In this document: piece after piece, positions 18,021 to 51,262 of the stretch | Numbering within the stretch: the first letter of the stretch is position 1 | Layout: each line of letters opens with the position of its first letter | Assembly: GCA_021234155.1 (NCBI GenBank) | Contig: JAJEKV010000024.1 | Span: 12,622,913-12,686,912 of the forward strand | Direction: 5' to 3' | From: Isoetes taiwanensis | Taxonomy: Eukaryota > Streptophyta > Lycopodiopsida > Isoetales > Isoetaceae | DNA length: 64,000 nt | Notes under the pieces: model-generated | Database searches by the model: none | What the model was told of the DNA's origin: nothing | What the model saw: the letters and a program-made list of their open reading frames with translations, nothing else | Translations under genes and position numbers: made by a program

Positions 18021-18513
18021 ATCAAACCAAGCACAGGATGAAAACATATTGTTTGTTGCACCAGAATCAATGCACAAATAACTCCTACTATATCTATCAG
18101 CAACCTCCATAACTTTCAAACCAATCTCTTCTTTATTTTCATTTTTTATATCACTTGAGAATGCAACGTTTGTTGCACTACTTGCTGGAGCAATATCATT
18201 CACATTTTGGCTCTTGTACTCAGCTGACAATCTCATCAAATCATCTTTTCTTTGTCTACAAAATCTTTGTATGTGACCCAACTTATGGCAATAGTTACAC
18301 TCGGCATTGGCAAATCTCCCATCATCACGCCAACGTCCTCCACGACCATTACCATCTTCTTGTTTGGCACCTCTACTTGTACCTACACCACCTCGGCCAC
18401 CACGACCACGTCCACGATAAACATAACTGCGACCTTTTCCACGTCCACGGCCACGTATTTCCACGTCCATGGCCACGTATTGCAAGAGCCACTTCATTAG
18501 AATTACTCCTCAT
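18021..18513 (-). pseudogene. copia-3 gag C-terminus, zinc knuckle and protease start
   Basis: Minus strand. An Arg/Gly-rich stretch (RGRGRGKGRSYVYRGRG) precedes one CCHC knuckle, CNYCHKLGHIQRFC. Then comes a linker and the protease motif YLCIDSGATNNMF, after which the retroposon interrupts it. The segment just inside the TIR-element boundary (SNSNEVALAI, then a one-base shift into the RGG frame) is the continuation of the gag N-terminus found at 32264-32766. Confidence 0.85.
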
Positions 18514-18542
18514 TAGGGCGGATTTGGGGTCTGAAAATGGCC
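18514..18542 (+). repeat. left terminal inverted repeat of the 13.7-kb element
   Basis: Begins TAGGGCGGATTTGGGGTCTG and ends AAAATGGCC. It pairs with 32232-32260 with one mismatch. If the TA at 18514-18515 is a target duplication, the repeat proper begins GGGCGG. Confidence 0.9.
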
Positions 18543-18803
18543 CTTATCTTGGGCTAAAAATTTCCACGTCAGATTCGCCAGGACCAATCAGGTTTGCGCC
18601 TTTTTTACGAACGTCAGTATTACTTGGCAGGTAGAAGGATGAGCAGGCTTACTTGGCATCCACATGGCGTATTTTCATAGGGGATGCCTGCGCTTTTATT
18701 GCAACCATTTTAATGGCCCGTATTTTTCGGGAGTCGCTTCGCCGCCCAAAATAATGGTGACTTTGACCGCCTACTGTCAGCATCACCAACTCCCTTGTCA
18801 AAT

Positions 18804-18816
18804 TTTGGCGCCAAAC
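18804..18816. promoter_or_regulatory. E2F-type palindrome
   Basis: TTTTGGCGCCAAA contains the perfect palindrome TTTGGCGCCAAA, which satisfies the E2F consensus (TTTSSCGC) on both strands. It lies about 290 bases inside the left end and about 600 bases before the first long plus-strand frame. E2F sites drive S-phase genes in plants. Function here is inferred from sequence alone. Confidence 0.5.
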
Positions 18817-19202
18817 TTCTGTACTGTCACTCCGGCGCCTCTACGTGCATCCTCTCCGCCTTCACTCCTCATCTGCAATCCATGTCTCCTGTAATTTCTG
18901 TGTTCTTGCCCCATTTACGAACTCTCAAGGTCAAGAAGTGGGAGGTTTTGTCTCAATAGGTTAGGTGGGTGAGTATCTTTTGCCATCAACGAGGGGCGAG
19001 CATAGAGTTAGCGACAAAGGCGATCAGACGTGCGGACACATTGGATAGGTAGGATAAAAGAGTTCAAGTTGAATTCTAGCGGCCGGAAAGTGGAAAGTAT
19101 AACAATACGACATGCATATACCCCTTCTGATATGGCCAAAGAGCTAATCTCCACCAAAAACAGCTTCCCAAAATTGCCCGCAAATGGTAACCACCTTAAA
19201 CG

Positions 19203-19269
19203 GATCACACGACGCGAAGCTAGCTGTCAGCTACTTAACTGCGTAGAGATAGTTTCGCGTCGTGTGATC
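19203..19269. repeat. palindrome 1 of the GATCACACGACGCGAA series
   Basis: Perfect 16-base arms (19203-19218 and 19254-19269) around a 35-base loop. Confidence 0.9.
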
Positions 19270-19428
19270 TTCTTATCTTTTCATTTCTTTCGTTGACACG
19301 TGTTTACAAACAAATTTATTGTGCAGGTTTATGTTTATCGACGCGTCGTGGATGTCATTCCTACGAAAGTATTAGTAGTGTACTTGTCGTGTATCACATA
19401 GACATCGGAATTGTCCTTTTCAAGGTAT

Positions 19429-20187
19429 GGATGCCGTGACCTTGCGGGGGTATAGGCATCCGGTTTTACTGGACATGATTATAACGTAAAGGTCAGGAAA
19501 CCGAGCTTGAGGCCGGTTGAATTGCCCCCTTTAAGTGAACTTTGTAAGCCACAGACTAATGAGAACAATGTAATTGCAATGAAGAAATGCATGGCTGACG
19601 AGGTGCAAGCGGGAATGTCTGAAAATGGAGGCGTGAGGATGAGTTTCAAAATCTTCACACCGTTTGAGGTATTTGCTAACATATTCCAGATGGCGCAGGA
19701 AGTTCGAAAAGCTCCGAAGACATATACGTGCTTTCTCCCCCCTGCCGATTTTGTGGATGGCTTATTTTTGGTTCCGACCTGGGATGTTCGATTCCACGAA
19801 TCATCCGGTCAACTAACAGAGGTCCGCGTAGTTAAGTCCTCCTTTAAGTTCAGATACTTTCTTCCAAAACAATATTTATACGTTAATTGTCAACTAGAAC
19901 GAAGGAAACAGAAAAAGAGAGGCTGCACAACTTTTTGGGAGCCGTTTGAGGACCATAACAGACACTCCGATGCGGTGGATATTCGAGTATGGAGAGGGGA
20001 GGAAGTCATTTATACGGCTACCATGGAAAGCGAATGGCCATTATCAGAGCTAAGAGTGCTAATGGAGACAGAGGAGATTGCTGACGACTTCCATTATTTT
20101 ATTGATGGCATTAGGGTTGGTTACAGGCAAGAGGGAAATGTAAAGTTTAGTGAGTTCGCGATCAACAAGAAATTGTCTATCGGCTAG
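19429..20187 (+). pseudogene. unidentified ORF with possible C-terminal beta-grasp domain
   Basis: The open frame from about 19456 to 20187 is the longest plus-strand frame of the TIR element. Coding character probably begins at the ATG at 19429 in another frame (MDAVTLRGYRHPVLLDMIIT), so one frameshift near 19480 is likely. The middle is hydrophobic/aromatic (FTPFEVFANIFQMAQEV, SFKFRYFLPKQYLYVN). The last ~65 residues (VDIRVWRGEEVIYTATM, then PLSELRVLMETEEI, DFHYFIDGIRV, KFSEFAI) have the strand-strand-helix-strand rhythm of a ubiquitin-like fold. I do not recognise the family, and the fold call is an inference from pattern. Confidence 0.55.
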
Positions 20188-20373
20188 CGCTTTGAATCTC
20201 GGTTTTTTATTTGTGTTTTTGTCTGATGTTTTTTTAGGGTTCCATATTTTGTCCGATATTTTTTTAGGGTTCCGTACAATTATTTAAAAACGTTACCATC
20301 ATATTTTACTTTAACTTCTGTTTTTTACTATTTATCTCTTGCCAGTTGTCTATTTTTGTCGGTGTTACCGTAG

Positions 20374-20380
20374 TATAAAA
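20374..20380 (+). promoter_or_regulatory. TATA box before the histone-like gene
   Basis: TATAAAA, 29 bases before the ATG at 20403. This spacing puts the expected RNA start almost on the ATG, so translation may begin there with a very short leader or at a later ATG (20521). Confidence 0.5.
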
Positions 20381-20402
20381 GCGCCATCCGGCCGAGAAAG
20401 CC

Positions 20403-21300
20403 ATGGCAAGAACTAAGCAACCGCAAGGATCCATCCGTGGTGTAAGGCCGGTGATTACATTAGTCCGCCTTCTTCATCCGACTCTGAAGTCTCGATAGAG
20501 ATTCTCCTCCTCCTCCACCATGCCTAACGAAGACCCGAAAAAAGAAATCCGCGATGACAGGGCGGTGGGAGAAGCAGCTCCGGAGTAAGTAGGGAGGTGC
20601 ACTCCGGTTCGGAGACAGAGGATGAAAATGTGAGAGACCGGCGAGCAGAATATGACGCCGGATTAATTATTGGGCAGCCGCCTCTTCTTGCTCTTCCTGC
20701 TCCTCCCCGTTCCTTACGTGGAGGTGCGGGACCTTCAAATCAAAGGAGGAGGCCCAACGCCCGAAAAAGGGAAGGCGACCAGGAATGTGAGGAGATGGCC
20801 GGAAGAGTCGGCCGAGGAACGGCCTGCAGATCTTTGGGTGAGGAGAGGCGGCCGGAAGAGTCGGCGAAAGAAAAGCTCCAAATCTTTGGGGTGGGTGAGG
20901 GTAGTGGCGGAAGCGGAAGACGGCCTGGCATTAAAAGCGCTTAGCGAGATTAAGAAGTATCGAAGAGCACCGAGATGGTCATTCCACGTCTTCCATTTGC
21001 CCGGGCTCGTGAGAGAGATTCGCAAGAGTGTGGTGCGATACATCATACCGATTCTGAGAATTCAAGCAACCGCCTTAAATGCTCTTCAAATGGCTTCGGA
21101 AGCGGTTGGTGTCGGTGCGTTCGAGGACTCGCAGCCTTTGCGGCGGTGACTGGTCATGCCCAAGGACATGCGCCTCGTCTTACGCATAAGGGATCCCGAA
21201 AGTACTATGGTCAAAATTTTATGGCTGAATACAACAAGAAGAAAGACCCCCGAAAAAAAGGCCGTGAAGTGCCTTTGTGTTTTTTTTTCATATGTATAAT
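20403..21300 (+). pseudogene. divergent histone H3-like gene, decayed
   Basis: The ATG at 20403 begins MARTKQ, the invariant N-terminus of histone H3, then diverges. A long Ser/acid- and Arg-rich stretch follows, split across frames. The histone fold is at about 20930-21215. It has ALSEIKKYRRAP where H3 has alpha-N, then FHLPGLVREIRKS, ATALNALQMASEAVGVGAFED, and after a TGA the in-frame remainder LVMPKDMRLVLRIRD, which corresponds to the H3 end MPKDIQLARRIRG. The TGA sits where H3 has its loop-2 region. The tail is much longer than the ~40 residues of normal H3. A host H3 capture and a viral histone are both possible. Confidence 0.75.
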
Positions 21301-21406
21301 ATTTCTTAATGTAATGGCTTTATAAGCTTAATCTCTTAGTCCATTTCTTTCTTAGAAGCCTAGCTTAGCACTTTGTAATTTTTTTTTTTTTTTATGTTAT
21401 ACGTGA

Positions 21407-21475
21407 GGATCACACGACCTTGCAGACAAGCATTGTGCTTTTGTTGCACATAGTAGTCTTCGCGTCGTGTGATCC
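21407..21475. repeat. palindrome 2 of the series
   Basis: Perfect 12-base arms GGATCACACGAC / GTCGTGTGATCC (21407-21418 and 21464-21475). It follows a 21380-21393 T tract downstream of the histone-like gene. Confidence 0.88.
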
Positions 21476-21477
21476 AA

Positions 21478-21501
21478 CCCTAACCCTAACCCTAACCCTA
21501 A
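21478..21501. repeat. four TTAGGG-type telomere-like units
   Basis: (CCCTAA)x4 starts two bases after palindrome 2. Most plants use CCCTAAA; this run is the six-base type. It could be an internal telomere-like tract or chance expansion. Confidence 0.8.
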
Positions 21502-21509
21502 AATGTACG

Positions 21510-23060
21510 GACAAATCTCCCCACAACGGTGTCCCCCTTCATAATCGACAACGCGCTACTTGAGTTCAAAAGTGGCGATGCCTTACCCCTCCTAAACATC
21601 TTCTTGTTTTCGCCGTTTGCTTCGCCATGGATTGTTATGTGAAGTTCACGGAATGGTATGCATCCGCCCCTCATGACAACGAGGAAGTTGCGCCCGATCG
21701 CGATTTATCCGTTCTATTGCAAGGAGTTGGACATCATGGCAAAAGCGATGCGAGCTTGGATGCTATCGCGAGGTTGCCTTAGCTTTCACCCGGACCGCTT
21801 GGTCTCAGCGCACGTCCTTTGCAGATGTCCCTGGCTCGTGGATTCCAAAACCAGCTCTAGAGGAGGCGGCTTCCCATTTGCAAACAGGGAAGATGTTTTT
21901 CAAGAATCTTTGCGCACGGCGGGCTCCTCTCAGCTGCGTCCTTGTGCTTAAGAAGGTATCTTATTTCTCTTTGCCGTTTGCATTTGCTAGTTATTGCATT
22001 ACCGCTTCGCCAAACCGAAGATACACTAGAAACAATGAAATCTTTAAGCCAAGGGGGTCAGTTATGTGATGATGATCTTTGACTATGACGTAGAAATGGA
22101 GATAGATCTACAAGAAGAAGAGCAAGAATGTAGGAGTTTTAGCCGACGACTTGCCCTTGGGTGAACCCGGAGGAGGGAGATGATTACAAGGTGATGAGGA
22201 TGGGGATGAGGATGAAAAGAAGTTGTCGACATAACGCCAATTTTAGTGGAAGGCAAAGAATACTTATTGCTAAGTGATATCTTGAGGAACCCGTCTTTAT
22301 TCTGAATGTGTGCTAGGGAAGACGAGCTTATCGGTACCTTGGCGAATGGGTAAACTTAGGCCCTAGATTTTGAAGAGGATTTGGACAAAGAGATGTTTGA
22401 AGTGTCTAATTATACCAGCAATGCTATAAAGCTTAAAGAAGCCTATGAGAGGCTGGAGTCTCGATTTGCTCAAGATGAGGCGAATCTACCAACGGAAGAA
22501 GAATTCCAAATCTCCGGGTGCAAAGTCGCCAACAGGATCTGGGTTTGGCGTGGCCCTTGATCAATCAGCGGCGGCATAAGCCCAGTAGATGAGGATAAAT
22601 GTGAAGAAGATAATCTTGAGGGTTCTTATTTGTGGGAAGTAGATGATTTTTCTTGCCGACATGCACGCGGGGGACGGGAAAGATTGAAGGACTCTACATT
22701 GTTACGATATATCTCAAGATTCGTTAATGGGGAGATAATCGTCTTCTTAGAACTTTCAGTCCAAAAGGTGCGAGTTTGTCTATTACATCCGTGCATTATG
22801 CATGTTCGGGGAACCATTCCCAATTGGCATCAAACACTGAAAGGGTGATAGCAATTCGGCGGGATGTTGTGTTACAATATTTTGACGACCAAGCCGGTCT
22901 GCGGGCGAGCAATATGTTAAATTTTTAGGCTGGCGGCTTGACTCACCCAAGGTTGGAAGGCGGGGTCGATAACATGGAAGTCATTGCCTTGTTGGATCAG
23001 TGCGGCAGGGGATTGAAAGAGCATGAAATTGACGACGAAGCTTGAGAAATTGGAAGTTAT
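21510..23060 (+). pseudogene. decayed coding sequence, unidentified
   Basis: A string of protein-like segments in shifting plus-strand frames. At about 21627-21780 is MDCYVKFTEWYASAPHDNEE continuing to AIARLP and a stop. Around 21840-21960 is a segment with ALEEAASHLQTGKMFFKNL. Around 22390-22540 is FEEDLDKEMFEVSNY, then KLKEAYERLESRFAQDEANL. Around 22620-22800 is LKDSTLLRYISRFVNGEIIV. It may be one or two genes with many frameshifts. I recognise no family. Confidence 0.4.
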
Positions 23061-23151
23061 ATGTTTTCCAACTTGTATCGGTAAAATTATTTATGTACAG
23101 ATTGTCCTTCCGAAATTCCTAATAAAAATTATTTTATTTGTATTTATTCAC

Positions 23152-23212
23152 ATCACGCCAAAATACATCACCGATTTTTTACGTCATATCTAGGTTTTCG
23201 GCGTGTGTGTGA
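23152..23212. repeat. palindrome 3 of the series (imperfect)
   Basis: ATCACGCCAAAA faces TTTTCGGCGTG...TGAT across about 30 bases. It lies just after an AATAAAAATTATTTTATTTG end-of-gene motif. The arms are eroded relative to the consensus. Confidence 0.6.
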
Positions 23213-23306
23213 TATCTATCTCGAAGAAATGAAATATTATTGGAAAAAGACAATTAATTTATTTATTCCTCACACGACGCGAGAAGCAACTTCGTGCAAC
23301 TCATGT

Positions 23307-23315
23307 TATAAATAG
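23307..23315 (+). promoter_or_regulatory. TATA box of coiled-coil gene 1
   Basis: TATAAATAG followed by AAGACC, 94 bases before ATG 23401. The same TATAAATAGAAGACC string recurs at 24214. Confidence 0.7.
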
Positions 23316-23400
23316 AAGACCGATGTCCACGCTGACCTCCGATCGCCTTCATATACGCTCATCTTCTACTTCCGACTTCCGCCTTCCACCTTACGCTCCG

Positions 23401-23803
23401 ATGGCATCATCATCTTCCTCTAGCAAGCGACCACGCCAAGATAGCACTCCCCGGCCCCAGGCTGCGTGGACATCACCCTTGCGGTGGTGATGAAGAGATT
23501 CAAGGAGATCCATGATGAAAACAACCGTCTCGTCGCCGAGAACAATGAGGCGGTCGGCGATTAGCCTTCCACGAGGGAGCTGCCGCCGCAGGCGAGGCGT
23601 TGAGCTCGTGGAAACATTCGCCATGTACCAAGAGGCGGCGAGCCGCGGGGCGGCGGCGATTAAAAGCTGCTCACATGATTTAGCGAGGCCTTAGAAGATA
23701 TGGAGAAGAAGCTCAGAACTGCGGAGGATGAGAACGCCCTTCTTTACGGCTTCAGGTGCCGGGGACATGAAAATCAGCTAGAGGATCATGAAGATCCCTA
23801 GCC
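23401..23803 (+). pseudogene. coiled-coil gene 1 of a four-member family
   Basis: The ATG opens MASSSSSSKRPRQDSTPRPQ, a Ser run plus a basic nuclear-localisation-like patch. A frameshift near 23465 leads to the conserved helix VVMKRFKEIHDENNRLVAEN, then further shifts. The last frame gives LEDMEKKLRTAEDENALL and ends EDHEDP and a stop at about 23803. The intact protein would have been about 130 residues and mostly coiled coil. Three related genes follow downstream in the same orientation. I recognise no known family; at least two frameshifts make it non-functional. Confidence 0.6.
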
Positions 23804-23898
23804 GTTGTATCTATCTATTTTTTGCTTCAAAGAAAAGTTTTCTCTATTTTTGCTTCTATCTATCCCGTTGTTCCAATGTATGTTACGTTTTATTAAAA

Positions 23899-23967
23899 TA
23901 TCACCGGACGCCAAATGCCTTGCTTGCAATTAGGTAGCAATCAATGGATTTAAGCGTCGTGTGATCT
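23899..23967. repeat. palindrome 4 of the series
   Basis: ATATCACCGGACGCCAAAT faces ATTTAAGCGTCGTGTGATC. The loop shares the phrase TTGCAATTAGGTAGCAATCA with palindrome 6, showing that the two were duplicated as units. Confidence 0.75.
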
Positions 23968-24128
23968 CCATGCCGATTCTATTTTGCTTCAATGAGAAGT
24001 TCTATCTTTAGTTATGTATCAGTAAAATTACTTATGTATAGATTGTATCACCGAAATTATCAATAAAAATTATCACACGAGCTTTCTCTGGAAGAAAAGG
24101 CGTTAGAAGAAATAACGGTCCTTTTTCC

Positions 24129-24190
24129 TCACACGGCCTTGAGAAGTAGCGGTCGATTTTCCTGACCCACGGCATCCTTCGTCGTGTGAC
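24129..24190. repeat. palindrome 5 of the series
   Basis: TCACACGGC (24129) faces GTCGTGTGA (24181-24189) with one mismatch. It lies just before the TATA box of coiled-coil gene 2. Confidence 0.6.
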
Positions 24191-24213
24191 TCAAGCTACT
24201 ACGAAATCCCTGT

Positions 24214-24222
24214 TATAAATAG
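24214..24222 (+). promoter_or_regulatory. TATA box of coiled-coil gene 2
   Basis: TATAAATAG followed by AAGACC, identical to the box of gene 1. ATG 24460 is about 240 bases downstream because the leader has expanded. Confidence 0.7.
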
Positions 24223-24235
24223 AAGACCTTCTATC

Positions 24236-24459
24236 TTGCCTTCGACCTCCGATCCTCTTCCGCCTTCCGCCTTCTGCTCATCTTCTCCGCCTTCCGCCTT
24301 ACGCCTTCCGCCTTCTCCTCCGATCCTCTTCCGCCTTCCGCCTTTACGCTCATCTTCTCCCCTTCCGCCTTCGCCTTCCGCCTTCTCCTCCGATCCTCTT
24401 CCGCCTTCCGCCTTCGCTCATCTTCTCCCCCTTCCGCCTTCGCCTTCGCCTTCTCCTCG
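24236..24459 (+). repeat. pyrimidine-rich tandem repeat in the leader of gene 2
   Basis: Repeats built on CTTCCGCC and on a longer unit TCCGATCCTCTTCCGCC. Gene 1 has only one or two such units, so this is a local expansion that lengthened the untranslated leader. Confidence 0.8.
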
Positions 24460-24815
24460 ATGGCATCTTCATCCTCCTCCGATAAGCGGCCAGCGCCCCA
24501 GGCTGCCCGCGGACATCACCCTTCTTTGTGGTGATGAAGAGATTCAAGGAGGTTCACGGCGAAAACAGCCGTCTCGTCGCAGAAGATGGAGGTGGTGGGC
24601 CAATTAGAATTCACGAGGGGCTGCTTTGCATGGCGAGACCTTGAGCTTCAGCGGCAACATTAACCAGGTACCGAGAGGCCAATAGCCCGTGGGTCGGCGT
24701 TTTAATCGCACACAATATTTCAGCGGGCTAGAAGATATGGAGAAAGAAGCTTCGAGTATCGGAGGATGATGAAACGCACTTTCTGGCTTATTCTGAGGAT
24801 CATGAAGATCCGTAG
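24460..24815 (+). pseudogene. coiled-coil gene 2 of the family
   Basis: Starts MASSSSSDKRPAPQAARG, close to gene 1. The helix region corresponding to VVMKRFKEVHGENSRLVAE is in another frame. The end (LEDMEKEAS region, then EDHEDP and a stop at about 24815) matches gene 1 at the DNA level. Frameshifts inactivate it. Confidence 0.58.
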
Positions 24816-24898
24816 CCATTGTATATATATTTTTGTTTCAAAGAAAAATTTGCTCTGTTTCTTGCTTCTATCTGTTCTCTTGTTTTGTTTTATTAAAA

Positions 24899-24965
24899 GA
24901 TCACACGACGCGAAATGCCATTCTTGCAATTAGGTAGCAATCAATGGATTTCGCGTCGTATGATC
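24899..24965. repeat. palindrome 6 of the series
   Basis: 18-base arms (24899-24916 and 24948-24965) match at 17 of 18 positions. It follows a TTTTATTAAAA end-of-gene motif. Confidence 0.9.
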
Positions 24966-25322
24966 TCCACAACGTACACCTCGTTGTCATAATTTATTAA
25001 TGGAAAAGTATATGTAACACAAATATCTAGCTAGATTATGTGATAACTTGCGGGTAAATGAGAATTTGCATGTGGATGACAACGCCTATTCACATCGTGG
25101 CTTGTGGATGACAACGTCATGCCAAGGGCGTGGCATCTTGCCGCCACAATAACAACATCTTTTTGTGCGGCCCGCATACGATGCGGCTAGGATATGACGG
25201 ATCCCATGATGCGAACATAGGCTACCGCTTGCGTAATTGCATGCTATAATTTAAGCCTCGTGGGATTATTACACAACTTTATCGGTACTCGCAACCGTAG
25301 ATTCCAACGTATCTCTAGTTTC

Positions 25323-25331
25323 TATATAAAA
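25323..25331 (+). promoter_or_regulatory. TATA box of coiled-coil gene 3
   Basis: TATATAAAA, 97 bases before ATG 25420, matching the spacing in gene 1. Confidence 0.6.
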
Positions 25332-25419
25332 CGTCGGAGGCCTTTGTCTTCTCCTATCCGCCATCTCCTGTTCTACCACATCCGCCCTCACCATCTCTCT
25401 TGTTCTCCCATCACTTTCA

Positions 25420-25842
25420 ATGGCCTCCAGCTCGGTTCCATCCCCCACCAGATCTTGTCTCAAGTTTTGGTCAAGGAAATTTAGAACATTATTCGTCTTT
25501 GGCGGAGGAACGGATCCGCCTTCTAAAAAGAAAAGAATGATGAAGACGCCGCCAAGCTGGTTTGCGGGCGGAGGAAAAGGCCGCCTTCTGAGGAGGTGAT
25601 TTTAGTCGCCGACAATCACGGGCTGCCTTAGACCGCGAATTGCGCGCCGCCACGAGATATAACCTCCAAGAGAGGCTTAGGGCCGCAATCGAAGCGCGGA
25701 GAGGTTGCCCGAGCCCAACTTCGATGAGCGGGAAGATAAGGTTGCGGAATATGAGAACGTGGTTGCGGGGCGAGCAATCATGTTGGAGGAGCAGAAAAAA
25801 ATTATCACTGCCCTCCAGGAAGAGCTTGCCCGGCGATCATAG
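25420..25842 (+). pseudogene. coiled-coil gene 3 of the family
   Basis: Starts MASSSVPSPTRSC. The next frame gives YSSLAEERIRLLKRKE, and the last frame ends with a good coiled coil, VAEYENVVAGRAIMLEEQKK, then LQEELARRS and a stop at 25842. It shares start, size and coiled-coil layout with genes 1, 2 and 4 but has little residue identity. It is frameshifted. Confidence 0.5.
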
Positions 25843-25992
25843 GCATCGGGCTCCTCCTAGAGGGGCCCGTTTTTTTTTTTATGTTTGTAATTGGTTTTAT
25901 TTCTCAATGGGAAAAGTTTTTAACAAATGTGCCGAATATTACGTTTCCTATTTTTAATTTTCAATATCCGTGGTAGAGAGAATGACAAGACG

Positions 25993-26060
25993 GATCACAC
26001 GGCGAAACCCTTCATAGGGTTTTAAAGCTCGTGTCTCCGATTTCAGCGTGGTGTGATATC
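25993..26060. repeat. palindrome 7 of the series
   Basis: GATCACACGGCGAAA (25993-26007) faces TTTCAGCGTGGTGTGATATC (26041-26060), with small indels in the arms. Confidence 0.75.
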
Positions 26061-26199
26061 TGATTGTAGTTAGAATAGTTATTAATGTGTTCCAAATGAG
26101 ACGGTACCATTAATGTGTTCTAGCGGACAACCGATCGAATCCGCTCGACGCGTCGCGGCAATGGCCAAAGTGTGTTTAATATGTTGAAGCGCTAATATG

Positions 26200-26206
26200 T
26201 ATAAAT
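26200..26206 (+). promoter_or_regulatory. TATA box of coiled-coil gene 4
   Basis: TATAAAT, 93 bases before ATG 26293. Confidence 0.55.
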
Positions 26207-26292
26207 TGAGGTCCTTGCATTGTGCTCCTTCCGCCGGTTAGAGTCTTTGCTCCTCACTTCTATAATCTTAACGTCCCTCCCATTTGTCATCT

Positions 26293-26780
26293 ATGGCCTC
26301 CACATCCTCAACCCGATAATGGAAAAACATGAGAGGATAGAACTCCCTTCGACATAGTGTTGGGTGTTCTAATGAAGAGGTTGAAGGAGCAAGATGATCT
26401 TCTAAAGGAAAACGCCGTTACAATTCAGCAAAAAGAAGAAGAGAATGAATTCAACCTTCTCATGCTTCGTAGCCAGGAGAGGCAAATCAGGCGGTTGAAT
26501 AGAAGGTGGACAGGATGACATGCCCCAACAACCGTGACCGAGGTGGTTATGGCGGCAAACGAGGATGCTAATTCAGGCGAGAAGAACACGTTGTGCTATT
26601 GGGACGAGGAGCGGGACATGTACAAAGAGATGGTGGACAGATTGGAGGAACGTTTGGATAGGGTGATTGCTCGCTTGAGGGGAAGAGATGAAGACGCGAG
26701 ACGAGGGCGGAGCTGATGATGATGATGAAGATAATGAAGAAGAGCTTGCCTTTGGAGCAACAATGAGTCGTTGTATTTTG
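26293..26780 (+). pseudogene. coiled-coil gene 4 of the family, acidic C-terminus
   Basis: Starts MASTSSTR then stops. In another frame LGVLMKRLKEQDDLLKENA aligns with the VVMKRFKEIHDEN helix of gene 1, and continues QKEEENEFNLLMLRSQERQI. A later frame gives YKEMVDRLEERLDRVIARLR, followed by an acidic end (GADDDDEDNEEELAFG). Together this is a longer relative, about 150-160 residues, with at least two frameshifts. Confidence 0.55.
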
Positions 26781-26847
26781 TTTTTCAATGTAACATCTTT
26801 CACAACTTTAATCAAAAGTAACCCTTTTTATTATTATCTTGTAAAGC

Positions 26848-26993
26848 TTCACACGACGCCGAAGCCACATAAATGCAAGCAATAGCGAACTCCAATGTTA
26901 TTACCCGTATGATCTAAATAAGATCACCGCGGCCACGAAGCTTCTGGTTGTGCAAACAAGGTTGGAGGCAAGTACTTCAAGGCGTCGTGTGAA
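26848..26993. repeat. palindrome 8 of the series
   Basis: Perfect 13-base arms TTCACACGACGCC / GGCGTCGTGTGAA (26848-26860 and 26981-26993) with a long 120-base loop. It marks the switch from plus-strand to minus-strand genes. Confidence 0.85.
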
Positions 26994-27129
26994 CATGCTA
27001 CACATTACAAGTATACTTTACCGATTCTTTGTCTCTTAGATCTCCACCGTTGCGATGCTAGTGGGGCCCTAGAATTTTGCCAAGCAACTTTCCGTTTTTC
27101 TCTTCACATTATGCCAATGGTGTTTCACG

Positions 27130-29664
27130 ACTTACGGGTTGCTCCTTAAAAGCGACCTTCTTGTCGTGTTTAGCCATCGCCCTTTTATAAAACCACTCGT
27201 CATCCGTCTTAGAGGGTTGGTTCCCACATTTCCACCCCTCTTTGAGTGTTACGATGAAAGGCTATTTTAGCTTGTTTATCACGACTTCTCCATGCCTTGT
27301 GCACTCCACCTTTGCTAGGCTTCCATACTTCCTAAAAACCAAGGTGCATGAGCCCAAAAGATGTGCAAGTAGTCGTGACTTCACTCTCTCCCCATGCGTC
27401 TATGAAAGCTTTAATAAATTTGTTATTAAACTTGCACGAACATTTACGCATTTTCTCTTGTGAGGTCCATTCTCTTCAATGTATGGGAACAATTCGGACA
27501 ATGCATCCCATGCTTTTTTTTTCCTCAATGCGAACGAACGCCATCATGCGGTCTGCTCGCATCAACCAGCAATTTTCCAAATTCATAGACCTTTTCTCCC
27601 ATCTGGTTTCCGTTCGAGCCTCTCTATGATTCTTTATGAAGCGTCGAAGCTTTCACCCCTCAATTGACACCTTCACGAGGCACACTTGTTCTTCCCGCCC
27701 ATTTCTCATCGAGCTCTAATCTTACATTGCCACCATGCAAACACATACGATAGAACATGTTCAACTCTCACGAATTCCTTCCTCTCTTCTCTTCTTATGC
27801 GAAATGTTCCACACGAATCTGCTGACTCAAAAATATCATCTTGTCGATGATTCTCACAAAGCCGTGCAAAGTGCGGATATGAACCCTCTCTAATGGAATG
27901 GGAAAAATGCCATGGAACTTGGGATCTTCTTCTCCTCTATTAGGAGCATTTGCTTGGTTAAGGGACAAGGTTGAAACATTCTTCCCAAAGCTTGACTTCC
28001 TTGCATGATTGCGGTCTGCACAACTTTTGCATGTTCCTTGTCCTCCTCCACTTATGTTGTACATTGCTTTCTCGGTTTTAAATCGGGCGCCAAGTGAAAA
28101 ATTACTTTGTAAGATCCATAGTGATCTACTTGCAATTTTTCCCTCCCTCGAATCTAGATATTAGACTTCGGGATGTCGGTTTGATTGAACACCCATTTCA
28201 ATACCTCGTGGGTTTTCTTTTCTCAACTTTAAAGAGACCTAACCACCGGTGTCATCTTGATTGACATGAGAACCATTTTTCCGCACGCTTCTTCTCCTCG
28301 TCCGTCACCTCTACATCCTTTTTGTTATTCTTGTTGCTCTTTGATTTAGCATGTGCAATTGCATTCTCAATTGCTCTATTCATGATGACAACGGATACCC
28401 TCTCATACTTCTCAAATTTGGTCAGGTTCCATTTCATCCAATTTTATGCAAACTTCAATCTCACCATTAGTTTACGAATCTGTTAAGTCATAATATTTGA
28501 CAAGGAATTTTAAGAGAGTAATCGTGGTCAACCCAAAGATTATTATGCGTTCATTCATTCCAACTATATCACAACAATCCTTGCCATTCTTATCTTTTAT
28601 GGCTATGGCGGGACCAAAGACATTCAACGTGGTGCATCTCTCCTAATATGGCATACACCATCTTTGTCCTAGTAACCCTTGTATTCTCGACAATTTGTGG
28701 ACGTGGAGCGAATACTTTTTGTGCCCATTCTTTTCAACGCTTAGGTGGAATGGCTTGAATAGAGAACGGTAACCAAGCCTCTCTTGATGCCTACATCATC
28801 ACAAACAGTCTGTACATCCGTAAACTTCTAACTTCTTGTAGATCTCCCCTAGTACCATTTCCAATACCATCTTCTTGAGAGGAGAGTTGTAGGGCTGACA
28901 AATCATGTCCACTATCTCCCTGTTCGTCGCTAGGTTCTTCACTACATAACCAAGATTGCTTCTAGTTTTCCCAGATCTTAACTGGCCTTTGCTAGTGTTG
29001 TAAACGGACCTTGTGGCCGTGACCCTGCGTCTGAATGCACCTGATCCAAACTTCAGTTCCTCTATCGGTAGATAATGCTTCTTCCTTTCTCGCAAGCCAA
29101 GGGGTGTTTTCTTCAAATTCTTTAACCTACATTGAAGCCCAAAGTTTGCTCTTTTGAGCTCTTGGATCTTTTTGCAGCTGCCCTATCACCAATTTGGACT
29201 TGTCCACTTCGTATCTCAAAGAAGTTTCCCTCCCCAAGCCGTCATTCCTTTCCTTCATCACAGTGGAGTAATGAAGCGAGAGAAAAAAGAGTCTTTGGTT
29301 TAAGTTATAATTCTCTTGTGACAATCGGGCGGCTCATCTCAAGGAACTGTATTCGATTCGAATGCCTTCATCCTCTCTCAATCTCTCACAATATCCCAAG
29401 AGGCCGAGTTACCGTCACCACAAAATCGGACTAAACTTGAAACGTCCCCGAAATGACGGTTTCTTGCCACTCAACGGATCCAATGGATATAAACCGCCAT
29501 CCGCCCGGATGTCGACACTTTTTAGCCTGCAAAGGCGCAACATGTCGAGGTCTAAGTTCTTATTTTTTAGACCTCCTTTTTTTAAGCGATTGAAGACCCG
29601 GAGCATATTCCCCGAGTCGGTTGGATCCTTATCCACACATCATTTGGAGCTTCCATACCGCGTG
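27130..29664 (-). pseudogene. long decayed minus-strand ORF, unidentified mobile-element-type protein
   Basis: Protein-like segments follow one another on the minus strand with many frameshifts. They include a start region near 29664/29636 (MDKDPTDSGNMLRVFNRL), YEVDKSKLVIGQLQKDP, LGLRERKKHYLPIEELKFG, MVYAILGEMHHVE and a Lys-rich stretch with EVTDEEKKRAEKWF. Near 27800-28060 is a C-x2-C segment (GTCKSCADRNHARKSS), then FHGIFPIPLERVHIRTLHGF. Near 27230-27300 is WAHAPWFL, with QGMEKS a little further on. The IPLxxVHIxTLH pattern and the late GMEKS/HRNTQ signature remind me of large uncharacterised ORFs that recur in plant and metazoan repeats. I cannot name the family. It is the best candidate for the element's own mobility or replication protein. 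Confidence 0.5.
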
Positions 29665-30264
29665 GATCGCCGGCGGCCTTGAAATGAATGTGTACAATTT
29701 GTATGCCCCAAAGACAATTAAACTTCGCTTGAGGCTCAGTCCGTACTAACCTCGTTTTTGAAATTTGCAACGTGCATATGGAAATCGAAAAGTCCATTCT
29801 CCTACAATCCATGCTTTTATACAAAAGCAAATTCAAAATTCGAATTGTAGGGGGGCGGGAAGCCTATATTGGGATGAAGTAAAGATCCCGATTCACGAAC
29901 TTTTAAAGGCGCAATCGCAGTATGAAAACGAAAGTCTAATACAAAGCTTCAACCTACACATTCAAATTTTGAAATGTAGAAGGCGGGAATGGACTCTAAA
30001 TGAAAATAGGGCAAGACAAGAATCGGTGATGCGCATGATTGGTATCTGACAAACCAAGAGACACCGTCATGAGTTGCCGGTATGCTATAATGCAAGTGGC
30101 TTTTAGAAGCGCCACGTGTTAAATCAATCTGTCGACAACAAGAGAATTAAATACATATGGCGCCATAGATATCGATTCCCCTTATTCCCGAGAATATTCC
30201 AAGCAAATCGGACAGGAAAAAAAGGGAAATATGACGTGGAATGGTTGATAGGAGGCCATTTTAG
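29660..30264 (+). repeat. internal copy of the element's right-end sequence
   Basis: Matches 31662-32240 in direct orientation (shared strings ATTTGCAACGTGCATATGG, ACACCGTCATGAGTTGCCGG, ATATGACGTGGAATGG). It ends at AGGAGGCCATTTT, just inside where the terminal repeat would start. Confidence 0.88.
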
Positions 30265-30371
30265 TTCATAAAACATAATATAACTTGGAATGATAGATAT
30301 TTTATATGCAAATGGGAGACTATTGACCAGGGACTTGTGTTTAATTTTAATTTGACAACAAATAAGAAAGT

Positions 30372-30440
30372 GGATCACACGATCTTAATTTAGTGTGTTC
30401 CATTTTTGTTGCATATGTACTATTAAACTTGGTGTGATCC
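30372..30440. repeat. palindrome 9 of the series
   Basis: Nine-base arms GGATCACAC / GTGTGATCC (30372-30380 and 30432-30440). The inner part of each arm has diverged. Confidence 0.7.
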
Positions 30441-30734
30441 TTGAAAAATAATATGCTCTTTGAAAAGGGATAATGACTTATGTACTTAAGAGTGGTAACA
30501 CATGTACAGGAAAAAAAAAAGTTAGGTATTCAAATGGAATTAGAAGCAAAAACTTTTTACATTCAAAATTTTTATGGTCGTATGGCTTTACATCATTTTG
30601 TAAATTTAAATGCCCGGAGGCTTCAACTATTCACAACAAAAAAGCCCGGAGGCTTGCAGTCATATGGTAAGAAGCTGGAGGCAAGCTCGACTAAGAACAA
30701 GGAAAAAAAAATAAGAGGTGCTCTGCCCTAACAA

Positions 30735-31159
30735 ATTTCATTCATCTGCTTCACCATCTGCAAAAAAAAAATAAGAAATAACCGTTAGTTGAATGCTTAA
30801 GAAAAGAAAGAAAACATGCATGTACCATGAACTAACGCCATGAGCTCCTCGAAGTTAGCAGATTCGTCTTCAACTTCTTCATCATCTTCGGCTTCTTCTC
30901 CGGGTTTGAGACCACTCATTTTCTCAAGAATCTCCTATCCGACCTTCAAGAACACCCGTGATGAACTCCTCGCTCCGAAATTTCCTCGATTCCTCATTCT
31001 CGATTCCTCGTCAAAGGAATCGGAGGAATCGAGGAATCAGAGGCATTCAGAGCAAGAACCGTGGGCAGCGGAGGGAACTGCGGAGGGAACACCTCTTCCA
31101 GCCGTAATAGGCGCCTCTTGGAGGACACCTCTGGCTCTTCCGTAGCTGATCTCTTCATG
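30735..31159 (-). pseudogene. basic/acidic minus-strand gene with a likely intron
   Basis: ATG at 31159 (minus) gives MKRSATEEPEVSSKRRLLRL, with nuclear-localisation-like KR clusters, then a Pro-rich segment. The frame is lost near 31000. The third frame resumes LEKMSGLKPGEEAEDDEEVE and DESANFEELMA. It then meets GTTAGT..., and a T-rich tract ending TTTTTTTTTTGCAG (about 30762-30775) offers a 3' splice site before a short final exon. No known family is recognised. Confidence 0.45.
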
Positions 31160-31344
31160 GCGATGGACTAGAGAAATTGGGTGGAGGATCTAGCGAAGAT
31201 TGGGCGGAGATTGAGGGGAGAATGGGCGCCAATCTAGGGGTGGAATAGATATAGGCTGGATTAGGCGTGAAAATCGTAGGAATGATTAAGTATTCCAGTC
31301 CTATCAACCATCATTACATGCCATTATGTGCATATCTCAAATTT

Positions 31345-31460
31345 GAGCCATATCTAATATCTTCCTTTTTAACCTTATACCTAAATATCCAATATCTTCC
31401 TTTTTTAACCTTATTCCTAAATATCCAATATCTTCCTTTTTAACCTTATTCCTAAACCTA
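31345..31460. repeat. three tandem ~40-bp units
   Basis: Three tandem copies of a unit containing AATATCTTCCTTTTTAACC and TTATTCCTAAATATCC. A plain minisatellite inside the TIR element. Confidence 0.8.
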
Positions 31461-31661
31461 TATGATTTGAGTTTAACCTGAAAATGAACAATCGATATAA
31501 TTCGAATTTAACATACTATTTAATACCAAGATGCTACGTCACACTATGTGTCGATAATTGGGATTTAAAAAAAACTCCAAACCCTCCTCGAGAAAACCAC
31601 GTAAGTGCCGACCTCACTTGTGTTTAAGTTTAATTTGACAACAAGCAACTTCCATATTGGT

Positions 31662-32240
31662 AGATCGCCGACGGTAGCGAAATCAAGGTGTGGTATTTTT
31701 ATGCCCCAACACAATTAAACCGTGTGAGCCGAACGTCCGCATACTAACCGTTTTTTTGAAATTTGCAACGTGCATATGGAAATCGAAAAGTCCATTCTCC
31801 TACAATCCATGTTTTTATACATTAAGCAAATTCAAATTTTGAATTGTAGGGGGCGGGAAGCCTGTATTAGGATGAAGTGAAGATCGGTTAAGGCGCAGCC
31901 GCAGCGCCTCGAAATGAAAGTCTGATCTGATACAAAGCTTCAACCTACACATTCAAATTTTGAAATGTAGAAGGCGGTGACGCGCACGCTTACCAAGAGA
32001 CACCGTCATGAGTTGCCGGTATGCTATAATGCAAGTGGGCATTTTAGAAGCGCCACGTGTTGCATCAGTCCGTCTGACAACCAACAGAATTAAATACATA
32101 TGGCGCCATGAATGTGCAATCCCCCTTATTCCGGAAGAATATTCCAAGCAAATCTGTAATTATGAGAGTTTGGTATCCTAGGTGGCATGGGAAAAAGGGA
32201 GCGGAAATATGACGTGGAATGGCTGATAGGAGGCCATTTT
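31662..32240 (+). repeat. right subterminal sequence, duplicated at 29660-30264
   Basis: Direct repeat of the internal copy. With 30265-31661 it forms an extra ~1.4-kb segment between two right-end copies, as if a second related element or a partial end had been added. Confidence 0.88.
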
Positions 32241-32260
32241 CAGACCCCAAATCTGCCCTA
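32232..32260 (-). repeat. right terminal inverted repeat of the 13.7-kb element
   Basis: Reverse complement of 18514-18542 except for one C/T difference. It abuts the copia-3 gag sequence at 32264. Confidence 0.9.
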
Positions 32261-32263
32261 ATG

Positions 32264-32766
32264 ATACCCTGCAGCTTGTTGTGTCTCAAGCTCAGCCTTA
32301 ATGGAACTACACGCTTCTACAAAATTACCTTTATAAAGTGTCCTTACAAACATCTTTAAAGGATCAAGTCTTTGAGGAAAAGCTTTTGTGAAAGCTATTA
32401 CTTGAGCCTCCTGGGTCTTAGCTTGGCCTGCAACAGCAAACTTTGCAAATATCTCATTGAAAGCTACAATGAGTTTTTCCAGATCACGTGCAGATGTGAA
32501 AGAAGTTGGTGAGATAGATGATGAAGATATAGAACTACTTCCCGTTAACTGCATTAATACACCATCAGTGATAAGATTTAGAAGAAATGTTATCGCCCTT
32601 CTATCTTTCTCCTTCCAATCATCTGTCAGAGTTTGTGGTTTGGAATCTCCTATCACAGACCAACAATCATCGGCTTTCAACAAACCCTTCACTCGAAATT
32701 TCCAATAATGCCAATGCATTCCATCAAAAGGCTTTAGAGTGGACTCAATCTTCATAAACTTAGACA
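32264..32766 (-). pseudogene. copia-3 gag, N-terminal part
   Basis: Minus-strand ATG at 32766, 31 bases below the primer site. It begins MSKFMKIESTLKPFDG, then HWHYWKFRVKGLLKADDCW, then a UBN2-like core (TFLLNLITDGVLMQLTG, FPQRLDPLKMFVRTLYKG). It ends AELETQQAAGYH at the boundary of the 13.7-kb element; gag continues at 18513. Confidence 0.88.
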
Positions 32767-42076: not shown

Positions 42077-43003
42077 TACTTATAGTGATTTCAACAGATC
42101 CACATTCCAGTTAGCTTTTTAATTCCATGAAGAAACTCAACATTCTTCTAGAAGAAATGTTTATTCTGACATGTGAAAATGCCCCCCACAAAATTATTCT
42201 CAGAACGGAGGCCGAAACCCATGCAAGCTTCAACGCGAAAGAGGCAAAGTTGAAGCCGCTATACTTGTAGATCTGCTTCAAAAACATGTAGATGAAATCT
42301 CTCAAGAGTTTGATCTCTCCAGGGGGTACCCAAACAGTATTATTTTATTCTTCATTCATCAATATTAGAGATTCAGCCTTGTTTTTCACGTTGTTGGGAA
42401 TCACTTGCAGCACTATAACCTGGCTGAATTCTGAGTATATGCATCAGGTTCATATATTCTATTTCATGATGCTCATAGGCACCTACATTGCAGTTTGAAG
42501 CATTGTATATAACTAGTGGATTCTTTTTTACCATGTTGCAGTGTTATGCCCATTATATGCATATCATCAAAAACACCATCTTAGTCTTGTACTCCTTAGA
42601 CTTTTTACGGTGTGCATCATAAGCCTTACTGTTGGCATTTCATGCATTTTTGTAAAAGGATGTTATTAGATTATTTATCCTGGTTTTATCTAAATGTCCA
42701 TCCCTTTGAAGCATGACCGGACAAATAGCCGCCTATATATTCACCTCTAACTATTTGTCAATTACAAAAGTAGCGGTTGGTTGTGGAATCGTGTGTAGAG
42801 CAGAATTTAGGTGATAAGTATACACACTGCACTTAAAAAGAAAAAGAAAAATAGATAATAGAAAGACGATTCTACTAAAGAGCTAAACGACCACCTTCAC
42901 TACCAAATCAACGGTGCAAAATGAACTTAGATTTAAACATAAATTTCATCAAACTTCCAATATTGTATATTAAAAAATACGTAGCTAAAAAAAAAAAAAA
43001 AAA
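42076..43003. other. no gene recognised
   Basis: Only short hydrophobic frames without domain pattern. It ends in an A-tract that borders the duplicated block. Confidence 0.5.
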
Positions 43004-46000
43004 CTTTTAAATCTGTTCAAACAGACTTTTACCTTTCATGGACTTTTGCAAAGACCACTTCCGGTCAATATGCAGCCTTAAGCCAAAACAGGTGTAAAAT
43101 TGACTTAAGCCTTAAAATGGTTAATATTTATAAAGTCAAAAGAAATTACACGATTCTATAACAAATGACAATTTCCCTTTGTTAATCAAATTCATTTTTC
43201 CGTTGATACATCATATTTACGTTCAAAAGAGTTCAGAATTGACTCTAGAATGACCTACGCTTGATAATAAAGTTTAGAACTTTCCTTGTCTTTTAGAATC
43301 AACAAAACAAAGCTCAGCAGACTTGTTAAAATGAGTTTCTCCACTGTCATCACTGTATCTTCAATCTTGTCATGTCTTGTAAAGCTTTTCCAATTTTAAG
43401 TAAATGGGAAAATACACATAGGAGCAAGAAATCCCGTTACCTGCAGTGAAACCAGAGGACAGTTAGCCTAAGAAGGGTAAGAGCCTAAGTCACTAACAGG
43501 TAAGCTTAGATTTCTTGGGCTTTTCGCCCTTCACCTTGGATGTAATCCTCAACATAATAGAAATATAGAAAAAAATGCTTAACTTACTCTGCCTTTAACA
43601 TATAGTTCAGAAGCAATTTTAATATTAGCATGCATGTTAATCCTCCCATCTGATATTGGCCCTGAGTGCTTTATAAACTGCCCGCAACTTATAGGCCCCG
43701 TATATGTTTATCATCATATTCTAACAACCGCCAACCTTGCTTGTAGCTAGACAAACAAGGATTAGAAATATATGTTATCCCTGGAACGAGGACCCTGAAA
43801 TCTTTATGCTCTTGATTATAGTTTAAAGGAAACCTGTAAATTTGGTCACACTGTAGCAAATTCACAATGCATCAGCTCTACTGCCCTGTAAAATTGGTTA
43901 GGCCTGCTCATATCTACACTATATAGATGCATCTGGAGAGTGGACCAGCCCAGCAAGACTGACATATCTTATGCCTTAGTTTCAAGTTACTTTAAACCTC
44001 TCTTTATCTCCCTTAACGTAAGTGCAGCAATGTATCAATGTGTAACAAAGTTTAACTGAGTGTTATACATAGTAGAGGCAGAGTAGAGCAGTAACTCAGA
44101 ATAATATCCCCATATCCCCTGAAATATGTAAGTATTAAATCTTAAGCTACAATATGCACGGACAAAATATTGCAGAGTTCAGCTTATCTTCTAATATTTC
44201 CATATTTCCAACCTGTATCTTCTTGCTAAAGGTACCAAACATTTTTGTACTGACTGAGCTTTGAATTCAAATACCACTTTGTAAGCCTACTGGATGAAAG
44301 AGCAAAGTCTGCTGTGTACGACTCTTTATTCAATTTCGGGCCAGTATTTTACAGCTAGATTCCCACCTTAAAGTTTTCATAAACTATGCCCAATGCCCTA
44401 CTGAATCTGTAGCACTCATTTGCCTGCATGGCCAGTGAGATATCTATATCTAGACTCCATAAAATATTAATCTAGTTCCTTTGCTACTCTATTCTTATCT
44501 TGAAAAGACCATTATATGCAATGGAGGACTTAAATTTGCATAGGCCTTATGGAATTACCCTCTCATAACTATCGATACCACACTAGGTTCATCCTCAATA
44601 TGTGACGTAAAGAAATGCAAGGTGCATGGATTCATGTACCATAAGTAGAATATCTGCAGAGTAGTATCTAATGGCTGACCAATTTAATATTACCATTCTC
44701 TCTTGAGCTTCTATTGGTGGCACAAGTCTCATACGGTTAAAACACTAAACAGCAGCCAGAATTCAGCGGCTATCCACTATAGACGCAACACAGTAGAAGA
44801 TAAATATTCTCGGCTACAATAAATTTCTACATTCCAATGCGAAAATCTATTTGTAATTTAGCCACCCCAGATCATTCAGGTATATAATCTACTAGCCATT
44901 AGCCAGTGCCCTTAATCTAGTGATAGAAATCATAAGCTTACTGTAAACGATGCAACAAAGGCTAACCCTCTTGATCCACTTCCATTCTATAGAGGTCTAC
45001 CCACAACATTTATTGAATAAATGTAAACTGAATTCATGCATCTGTATTACATTATTGTAGCTTTTATTTGGAATCTATTCTTCCAAACCTGATTAGCTCG
45101 ATTCTTGTTGCAGTGTTCTTGTATAGTCTCATTGATCATAACTCCATGACTTTCTTGTATATCCACTGTAGTATCATATGTATGCCCAAGACTGCTGCAT
45201 TTCGCATTAACAGTGCACCCATAAACCTCTGGCATACTAGAAGCAGGAAACCTGTAGCAAATAGATGCATCCTCACAGCATTTATTACGTGTGTTCAAAG
45301 GAGATCTTAGATGAACACATTTCATCCTAGGCTATATACAATGTTTCACATGCACCTCCCTTATTGTAGATCTGCAGATGATCTAACTGATGATTCTAAC
45401 TTCATGATTCTAACTGATGCAGATGCAGTTCCATGGCTATACATATTAAGACAAAAGCCTAAAGAAATCTGATCTTCAAGATTATTCAGGAAAATTCACT
45501 AGCCCAATGCATGAATCAATCTATACTAAGTCTAGCAAATAATTTTCAAGCAAATTTACAAAGAACTTATAAACCATCTTCCATAGTCAGATCTATGACT
45601 GTCTAAACTCAAAATTGAAAAAAATGTCTCAAACCTTAAGAGTTCGTTGGAGATAGAAATATTTCTCCATGGTTTCCATTCTGGTGCTGCCTCCAGCTTG
45701 CTCCATGCATGTATCAGATTGTTCGACTAATTTCACACCAGAGCTTGCTCCACCAGGGATCTATCTGACCAATGGCTTCAATCTCGAAACAGACTATGGC
45801 ATATCCAAATTTAAATTCAACTACTTGCTGGCAAGGCTGAATGCATTTCTGCGTTTCCAAAGACCTTTTATTATCACAATACCTCAATAGCTGCAGATAT
45901 ATTAACCTTCCTCAATACCACAGAAGATGGATCTGCAATTTATTCAGAATTATTCTGGGCGTTTCTACCTCACTCCTTGTAGCTAAGTTTAGATCTCCAT

Positions 46001-46630
46001 TCTTGCATCCCATAATGACGGAAAAGCAAAAAATAGCCGCCAGGCAAGGAAATGCTAAGACTGCACATCCGGAAAGGTCACTAGAGCTCGTCCATTGCCG
46101 ATATTTGAGCATTTTCTTGTCCATTGCCAATATTTGAGCATTTTCCTATGTACTGCCACTGCCAAAACCCTAAATCACGAAATACAAATTATTGTTTACC
46201 ATGTATAATGCATCTATATTTCCATATAGCAGCATGATTTGGTGAAAACTATTCCGGATGGTTATACCAGCTTCTTGGTCGAAACCCTAATTCAAAATAT
46301 CCAAGAACATTATTTTCATAACCATGGTCATTTTAAAAAAAAAACTATTCCCCACGACATTGTACATTTAAAATTGGCTTTATTCCAAGTTGAACCATTG
46401 CACTAGGTTTCAGTTTCTTATCCCTTCCAACCCTTAAAGGTCTTGAACAACAAGCCTCAGAGAGTTTCTGCTATCAGTTTCAAGTTCGCCATGAAATTCA
46501 AGTGTATCCATCTCTTTGGAACCATTGACTGCAAAATGAGCATATAAGTACATTTGCAAGTTACATGTATTTCTCTGTTCATATACATGTATGGAAGTGT
46601 AACTGGATTCCACATTATTCATAATAAAAA
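43004..46630. repeat. 3.6-kb direct duplication, copy A
   Basis: Matches 48691-50523 plus 52833-54605 nearly base for base, starting CTTTTAAATCTGTTCAAAC and ending at an A-rich tract. Copy A has a 51-base segment near 44213-44264 that is missing from copy B and lacks about 36 bases present in B near 52960-52995. Both copies start and end at A-tracts. I see no gene; the open frames that appear in both copies merely reflect DNA identity. Confidence 0.92.
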
Positions 46631-46685
46631 AAGCATGCCTCCTACCGTAGGTCGGGGTGGGCAAAAGTCATACATAGAGTTAGCA

Positions 46686-48288: not shown

Positions 48289-48690
48289 TTGTTGCCAAAG
48301 CCCTACCCTACCTATATTGCCTAATTAACTCTTATTGCAAGTATTTATTTCTCTTTTAAGAGAGCCAAATGGCAAACAGAATGACCCTAGTCTGGACCAA
48401 TGCCAAATGACTAGTTTAAAAGAGCCAGAACTCATTCTACAATCCAATTTGTGTAAAAATTATAATTTCAAAAACAAATGTCATGTTACCTTTATTTCTG
48501 AATGGATTTCCTTATGTCTGCAGCAAGCCAAGAGTGAAAATCAGCTTAGAAAGAATTATAATTTCCATTTCCAACCTATGCCAATCCCTATAAATATCCA
48601 ATAAGTATTAGTAAGAAATTATATACACCTGCATTCTAACCATTTTAAGGTCCCTAGTATAACTAGGGAACTGAGTTAATGAAAAAAAAC
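48289..48690. other. spacer between LINE and duplication copy B
   Basis: Continuation of the pre-LINE sequence. No gene recognised. Confidence 0.5.
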
Positions 48691-50534: not shown

Positions 50535-50920
50535 AACCATTACATTACACGCCTTTATATTAAATCCCCCTTCAAACCCCCTTTGGTTTGGGTGCATATT
50601 CACACGGGGGGTGACTCCGGGCAACGAGAGCTGTTGGATAGGCATATTCACCCCTTATTCCTTAATCTACACCGTACACAAAGTTCCTCATTTGTGGGGT
50701 ATAGATGTATAGAATTTGCTATACTGTATAACAAGATTCGCAAAATACTATAAGATTTGAGATAATATACTATATGGTGTTGATTTTGTACATACAAAAC
50801 ATAATTATAAGGGCTCTCGTTGCCCTACGTCACCCCCCGTGTGAATATGCACCCAAACCAATGGGGGTTTGAAGGGGGATTTAATATAAAGGCGTGTAAT
50901 GTAATGGTTTTTGTTATAGG
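50535..50920. repeat. long inverted repeat in X2
   Basis: About 90-base arms (50535-50630 and 50815-50915) start from AAAACCATTACATTACACGC and include GGTTTGGGTGCATATTCACAC. They surround a ~185-base centre. X1 has only one such arm, so X2 has gained a flipped copy of its 3' end. Confidence 0.85.
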
Positions 50921-51262
50921 TTAAAAAATTGTTTTGCCCCTTCGGGGCTAGAAACAAACAATGTGACTTCACATTTGGAATAAAAGAAACAAATTGAGCA
51001 AAATGATGCAAATATGGGGTTTTTATTGGTCACAACATCCTCTTCGCTAATGTTTGAGTTCAATTACCAAATAGCTCAAATGGAGTTTTAAATCCAAGTT
51101 GCAACTTGCAAACCTTTTACAGCAACCCTTTTACCAGACCTGTTCTAAATATGATACACAAAATGCCACCAATAGACATGTCCTTAATGGGATCTCCTTG
51201 ACTTCATTTTGTACATCCACTTTGATGCCTGCAACAAGTATAAACCCTGTCACACATGAAAG

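Follow-up and report, generated by a model that had tools for sequence, protein, structure and literature searches.

A probable RAG1/Transib-type DNA transposon with a histone H3-like gene in the quillwort Isoetes taiwanensis

The element, its ends and its copies

We analyzed a 64,000-nucleotide stretch of the genome of the lycophyte Isoetes taiwanensis (contig JAJEKV010000024.1), hereafter the window, in which an initial annotation had placed a large inverted-repeat element of virus-like organization nested in a copia element. The element, its terminal inverted repeats (TIRs) and the three genes central to this report lie at the following window positions:

18511..32263, no strand assigned: whole element, 13,753 bp, delimited by the TIRs, four further copies and empty sites
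18511..18542, plus strand: left TIR, CATTAGGGCGGATTTGGGGTCTGAAAATGGCC
32232..32263, minus strand: right TIR, matching the left at 31/32 positions
19012..20184, plus strand: accessory gene, interrupted either by an intron or through decay, with an open frame at 19456-20184 (243 aa)
20403..21266, plus strand: histone H3-like gene, broken in the window copy; copies L043, L044 and L045 carry it as an open frame of 291 aa
27005..29656, minus strand: RAG1/Transib-like transposase gene, broken in the window copy, with homologous frames in other copies and in related elements

Inverted-repeat analysis of the window paired 18510-18542 with 32232-32264 (33 nt, 97% complementary), and the 31 of 32 matching positions are counted over the outermost 32 bp from CATTAG inward. 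A 25-base TIR pattern has two occurrences in the window, and 100 shuffles produced none. The matched repeats of the initial annotation were confirmed at both ends, with the true ends 3 bp further out on each side; CATTA/TAATG is common to the copies, and the extra 3 bp per end are absent from empty copia sites. The host site is the gag of a copia element. We looked for empty sites using the joined copia flanks without CAT/ATG as the query, which gave 57 candidates, and the joint was spanned in all 40 matches that were scored. Three empty sites were fetched, two of which (L040 and L041) read exactly as joined while the third (L042) did likewise with one flank base different. The gag frame is open across the insertion point in L040, as expected from the earlier claim that gag continues across the insertion. 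Because the empty copia sites read through the joint, the element starts with CATTAG, finishes with CTAATG and was inserted with zero bases of the target duplicated. We extended the test for a target-site duplication (TSD) to eight insertions, four of the window family and one each of the similar-ended elements C1036 (10.1 kb), C1033 (10.0 kb), C941 (5.2 kb) and C917 (8.7 kb), and the longest exact flank matches were 0, 1, 0, 1, 0, 1, 0 and 0 bp. The CATTAG..CTAATG termini were seen in the window family and in all four of these elements.

The genome searched comprised 1,658,258,908 bp in 1110 contigs. With the left 187 bp as query, 1050 candidates were recovered genome-wide, and the best 40, which were scored, were all 99-100% identical. 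Four further near-complete copies were collinear with the window element, covering 97.3-97.5% of it at 95.5-96.3% identity with gaps left out (90-94% in long BLAST segments). One of them, C1041, carries an insert of about 1.15 kb relative to the window element; its last 6 bp and right flank lie outside the fetched sequence. The initial annotation had named the lack of any other copy sharing ends and content as grounds for rejecting the element. The four collinear copies share both. The initial reading is supported in that the element is mobile, has firm limits and several genes, among them a histone H3-like gene, and does not resemble the usual DNA transposons of plants. We consider it probable that the window element belongs to a large plant DNA transposon present in many copies, with a RAG1/Transib-type transposase core of DDE residues and a CxxC...HxxxxH motif.

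Long direct repeats of about 98% identity elsewhere in the window (42995-46632 and 48682-54609) are probably recent retrotransposon copies.

Transposase, accessory gene and internal modules

The initial annotation had recognized no transposase. This stands for the window copy, in which the gene was overlooked because it is broken and because Pfam holds no model for the family, but a transposase gene is present at 27.0-29.7 kb. Copy L009 keeps 478 aa of the frame open, and related elements have frames of 856-911 aa. We compared the modelled fold of a transposase homologue, a model of low confidence, with known structures, and RAG1, ProtoRAG and Transib made up the first 35 of the 50 matches listed; the homologue thus appears to have the Transib/RAG1 transposase fold. 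The alignments contain the motifs KLDEMEL, ASDLKTEKA, CIYC/CLYC, HILYAH/HIFWAH and QGMEKSH, although some fragments cover only part of the set, and residues of these motifs probably have catalytic roles. The fold match, model-based as it is, argues for a DNA transposon close to the CACTA/Transib/RAG1 clade and against a virus. The transposase would bind the CATTAG ends, cut the element out and join it to new DNA, a cut-and-paste movement; joining at directly opposed positions, with no stagger, would leave no target duplication.

The accessory gene is a homologue of a gene (about 290 + 120 aa) that is convergent with the transposase in other elements. Its protein aligned with the L033 and L032 genes at 27-34%, and the second part of the gene was seen by eye in L032, L033 and L038. 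No Pfam or PDB match of the protein was above threshold. A genome-wide search yielded 137 matches from 2201 candidates, 135 of which were scored. Merging the 60 listed transposase matches gave 49 loci, at least 24 of which have an accessory match within 15 kb, convergent in 24/24 cases. The other 25 loci lack a listed accessory match; C917 is among them, yet a separate comparison shows one there. The accessory gene is held by the window element, C1036, C1033 and C917, and the related 5-10 kb elements show mainly the transposase, with or without it. By tblastn, the H3-like gene was not found in C1036, C1033, C941 or C917, nor, with up to 1 mismatch allowed, were the GATCACACGACG...CGTCGTGTGATC hairpins that are common to several modules of the window element. 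Because this gene and these hairpins were not found in the related elements, the transposase and the accessory gene look like the core and the remaining genes like cargo of the window family.

The other internal features are:

21627..23045, plus strand: modules broken in the window copy; copies L009 and L011 have frames open over 170 and 183 aa
23401..26770, plus strand: four tandem modules (repeats D4, D6, D8, D15) with small proteins, coiled-coil by eye
29650..30262, no strand assigned: internal duplicate of the right-end region without its outermost ~22 bp, matching 31649-32240 (repeats D3, D9, D11, D12, D16, D17)
19203..19269, no strand assigned: hairpin with arms GATCACACGACGCGAA / TTCGCGTCGTGTGATC
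21408-21474, 23896-23966 (left arm diverged), 24898-24966, 25993-26058, 26847-26994 and 30373-30439: further hairpins

The frames of the 21627..23045 modules gave no Pfam match, and a 173-aa coiled-coil frame in L009 gave a sub-threshold match only, to a phage scaffold family (17.8 bits, below the cut-off of 35). The duplicate of the right-end region also lies inside all four other copies. The hairpin arms, with at most 2 mismatches, are present in the same four copies; these hairpins sit after or within genes, one of them in what is probably an intron of the accessory gene. They are candidate terminators, binding sites or nested tiny elements. Telomere-like CCCTAA repeats stand beside one hairpin, at 21476-21502, and also occur in copy L011. 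The separate modules described initially, with their TATA-like boxes, T/A-rich ends and shared hairpins, are all present in the window sequence.

A rival reading of this layout is an endogenous DNA virus, or a self-synthesising element of the Polinton kind, that would encode its own replication and capsid proteins. The size of the element, its many small genes with TATA-like boxes, the hairpins after several of them, the histone gene and the sub-threshold phage scaffold match are all in keeping with that proposal. We nevertheless consider it very improbable, as the element contains a RAG1-like transposase whose relatives match the RAG1/Transib fold, and the related 5-10 kb elements show mainly that transposase, with or without the accessory gene. 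No polymerase, capsid or packaging ATPase was recognized by Pfam in any of the 27 window frames of at least 90 aa, many of which are broken, or in the scanned open frames of other copies. PHROGs searches with 10 proteins returned nothing telling, the single match being to a family of unknown function (E 0.026), and neither the transposase nor the H3-like protein had a relative in pattern scans of the IMG/VR contigs. Polintons generate a TSD of 5-6 bp, in contrast to the 0 bp of this element. The virus-like or self-synthesising organization proposed at first was not supported.

The histone H3-like gene and its possible role

The histone H3-like gene reported initially is present, though broken in the window copy, where the open piece matches Pfam Histone at E 2e-4, below the Pfam cut-off. 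It is broken in all four other complete copies as well. We searched the genome for the protein and obtained 154 matches from 1216 candidates, 150 of which were scored, with several open frames of 275-302 aa. Five open loci were fetched; L043, L044 and L045 have a 291-aa reading frame that begins with MARTKQTAR and runs to the stop codon, whereas L046 and L047 have no in-frame start and no tail in frame. The 291-aa protein has an H3-type histone fold (Pfam Histone, E 1e-30; PDB H3.3, E 2.3e-30) and is laid out as an H3 tail through R8, an unrelated linker of about 150 aa and the histone fold, the first loop of which is 4 aa longer than in H3. After R8 the protein reads IHPGG where H3 has KSTGG, such that lysine 9 is replaced by isoleucine. 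K4 is kept in MARTKQTAR, and the remaining canonical tail, with K9, K14 and K27, is gone. Isoleucine 9 was found in seven of the eight copies with a readable tail, the exception being the broken window copy. Of the 40 best left ends, 20 or more have an H3-like match 2.0-2.7 kb inside, a lower bound given that left ends C1049 and C1042 hold a broken H3-like gene missing from that list.

The ratio of nonsynonymous to synonymous differences (pN/pS) was 0.28 for the fold against 0.95 for the linker, from ten non-independent pairs among five copies, with small counts and copies picked for open frames. The fold therefore looks constrained and the linker does not. We weighed the possibility that the transposon is as described above while its H3-like gene and remaining modules would be host genes captured passively, without a role, as in Pack-type cargo. 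Other lineages manage without the H3-like gene, which is broken in all five complete copies, and the linker is free to evolve. Against this, the 291-aa genes are open in three of the five loci fetched, the gene has its own TATA-like box, the fold has the lower pN/pS and the tail is exact through R8 while the linker has diverged. Passive capture is a real possibility, though somewhat short of an even chance.

Histone H3 takes part in the silencing of mobile elements by cells. We tentatively propose that the H3-like protein is an anti-silencing histone cargo. The protein would enter nucleosomes or compete for them, and chromatin holding it could be marked at K4 but, because lysine 9 is absent, not at K9, and would lack the H3K9 silencing mark there. 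Alternatively, the protein might block the enzyme that writes this mark. Isoleucine acts like methionine at other histone residues. One gene for H3K9M, the lysine 9-to-methionine histone, dominantly blocks H3K9 methylation in fission yeast, and isoleucine is not mentioned in the portions of that study available (PMC5030085).

A second, unrelated repeat carries an H3-fusion gene (L035:5069-6415 and L039:4422-5810) for proteins of 449 and 463 aa, in which a near-canonical histone H3 is joined to an N-terminal domain (Pfam E 2e-40 and 4e-38). The gene gave 94 matches genome-wide from 10864 candidates (94 scored), 75-100% identical and many with open frames. In L039 it is followed on its own strand by Ty3-type gag and protease genes. 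The full proposal would be that a RAG1-type plant transposon encodes a K9-to-isoleucine H3, a natural counterpart of the dominant H3K9M, and with it disables or dilutes its own H3K9 silencing, histone uptake being recurrent by way of the H3-fusion repeat. In this complete form it is doubtful; if true, mobile elements would have taken up histones repeatedly, the H3-fusion repeat being the second case.

A related transposon with the TIR CATTAGAGGC is inserted in the H3-fusion repeat, from G000:C931:986696 onwards (L035:6697); no right end for it was seen in the 13.3 kb retrieved. Beside it, a 279-aa open frame (L036:6028-6864) resembles hydroxyethylthiazole kinase by eye and is a putative host gene or cargo.

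Comparison with known systems

The quillwort termini read CATTAG, neither CACTA nor the CACWATG of Transib elements. Repbase Reports 2020 put forward the Lanisha lineage, which is placed close to EnSpm and said by its authors to come probably from a moss; membership of the quillwort element in it is plausible, though less likely than not. The available portions of PMC12730594 place Lanisha in the same C(2)C/H(3-4)H clade (CMCT) as EnSpm/CACTA, Plavaka and ESTA, with mostly CA..TG termini and TSDs of 2-5 bp. The quillwort element shares the motifs of this DDE transposase, in which C(2)C and H(3-4)H separate the second D from the E, and the 5'-CA..TG-3' termini, the latter in the window family and all four similar-ended elements. 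It differs in that it lacks a CACTA terminus, the Pfam matches of the scanned frames include no CACTA transposase, and none of the eight insertions has a duplication above 1 bp, a 0-bp duplication being unusual for the clade.

The RAG1/Transib fold, the CA..TG termini and the C(2)C and H(4)H motifs (as set out in the available portions of PMC12730594) would also suit an ordinary Transib or CACTA (EnSpm) transposon, typical of its superfamily. We regard this as improbable, with none of the eight insertions showing a TSD of 2-5 bp. The element has neither the 5-bp TSD of Transib nor the CACTA-type termini with short TSD of EnSpm/CACTA, and is assigned to neither because TSD and termini differ. 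Transib, ProtoRAG and RAG1 share a 5-bp TSD, as illustrated by the CCAGG of TransibSU (available text of PMC4411706), whereas the quillwort element has 0 bp and CATTAG termini, resides in a plant, reaches 13.7 kb with cargo and has a partner protein without a Pfam match. Spy, of the PHIS group, is likewise a TIR transposon without target duplication, judging by a title in PMC12730594; by its description there, it is placed with Harbinger, in another transposase group. With the quillwort element, RAG1/Transib-like transposases that have long open genes extend to a vascular plant, and its insertion without target duplication, together with the convergent partner gene, provides a test case for DNA joining by such enzymes and for the origin of RAG, the enzyme that cuts human antibody genes.

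Literature searches by exact phrases, with most subscription papers outside their coverage, found no report of a transposon-encoded histone H3, nor was anything relevant among the listed hits of a combined search, judged by titles and abstract openings, and as far as these searches reach this may be the first transposon described with a histone H3 of its own. The altered tail leads to a direct, testable prediction on H3K9 silencing. VANDAL elements, HarbingerS/MuDR elements with SET genes and fungal TET/JBP transposons likewise carry an anti-silencing or chromatin-modifying gene, and no histone is among such cargo in the available portions of PMC12730594. Their cargo is a regulator or an enzyme, whereas that of the quillwort element is histone H3 itself.

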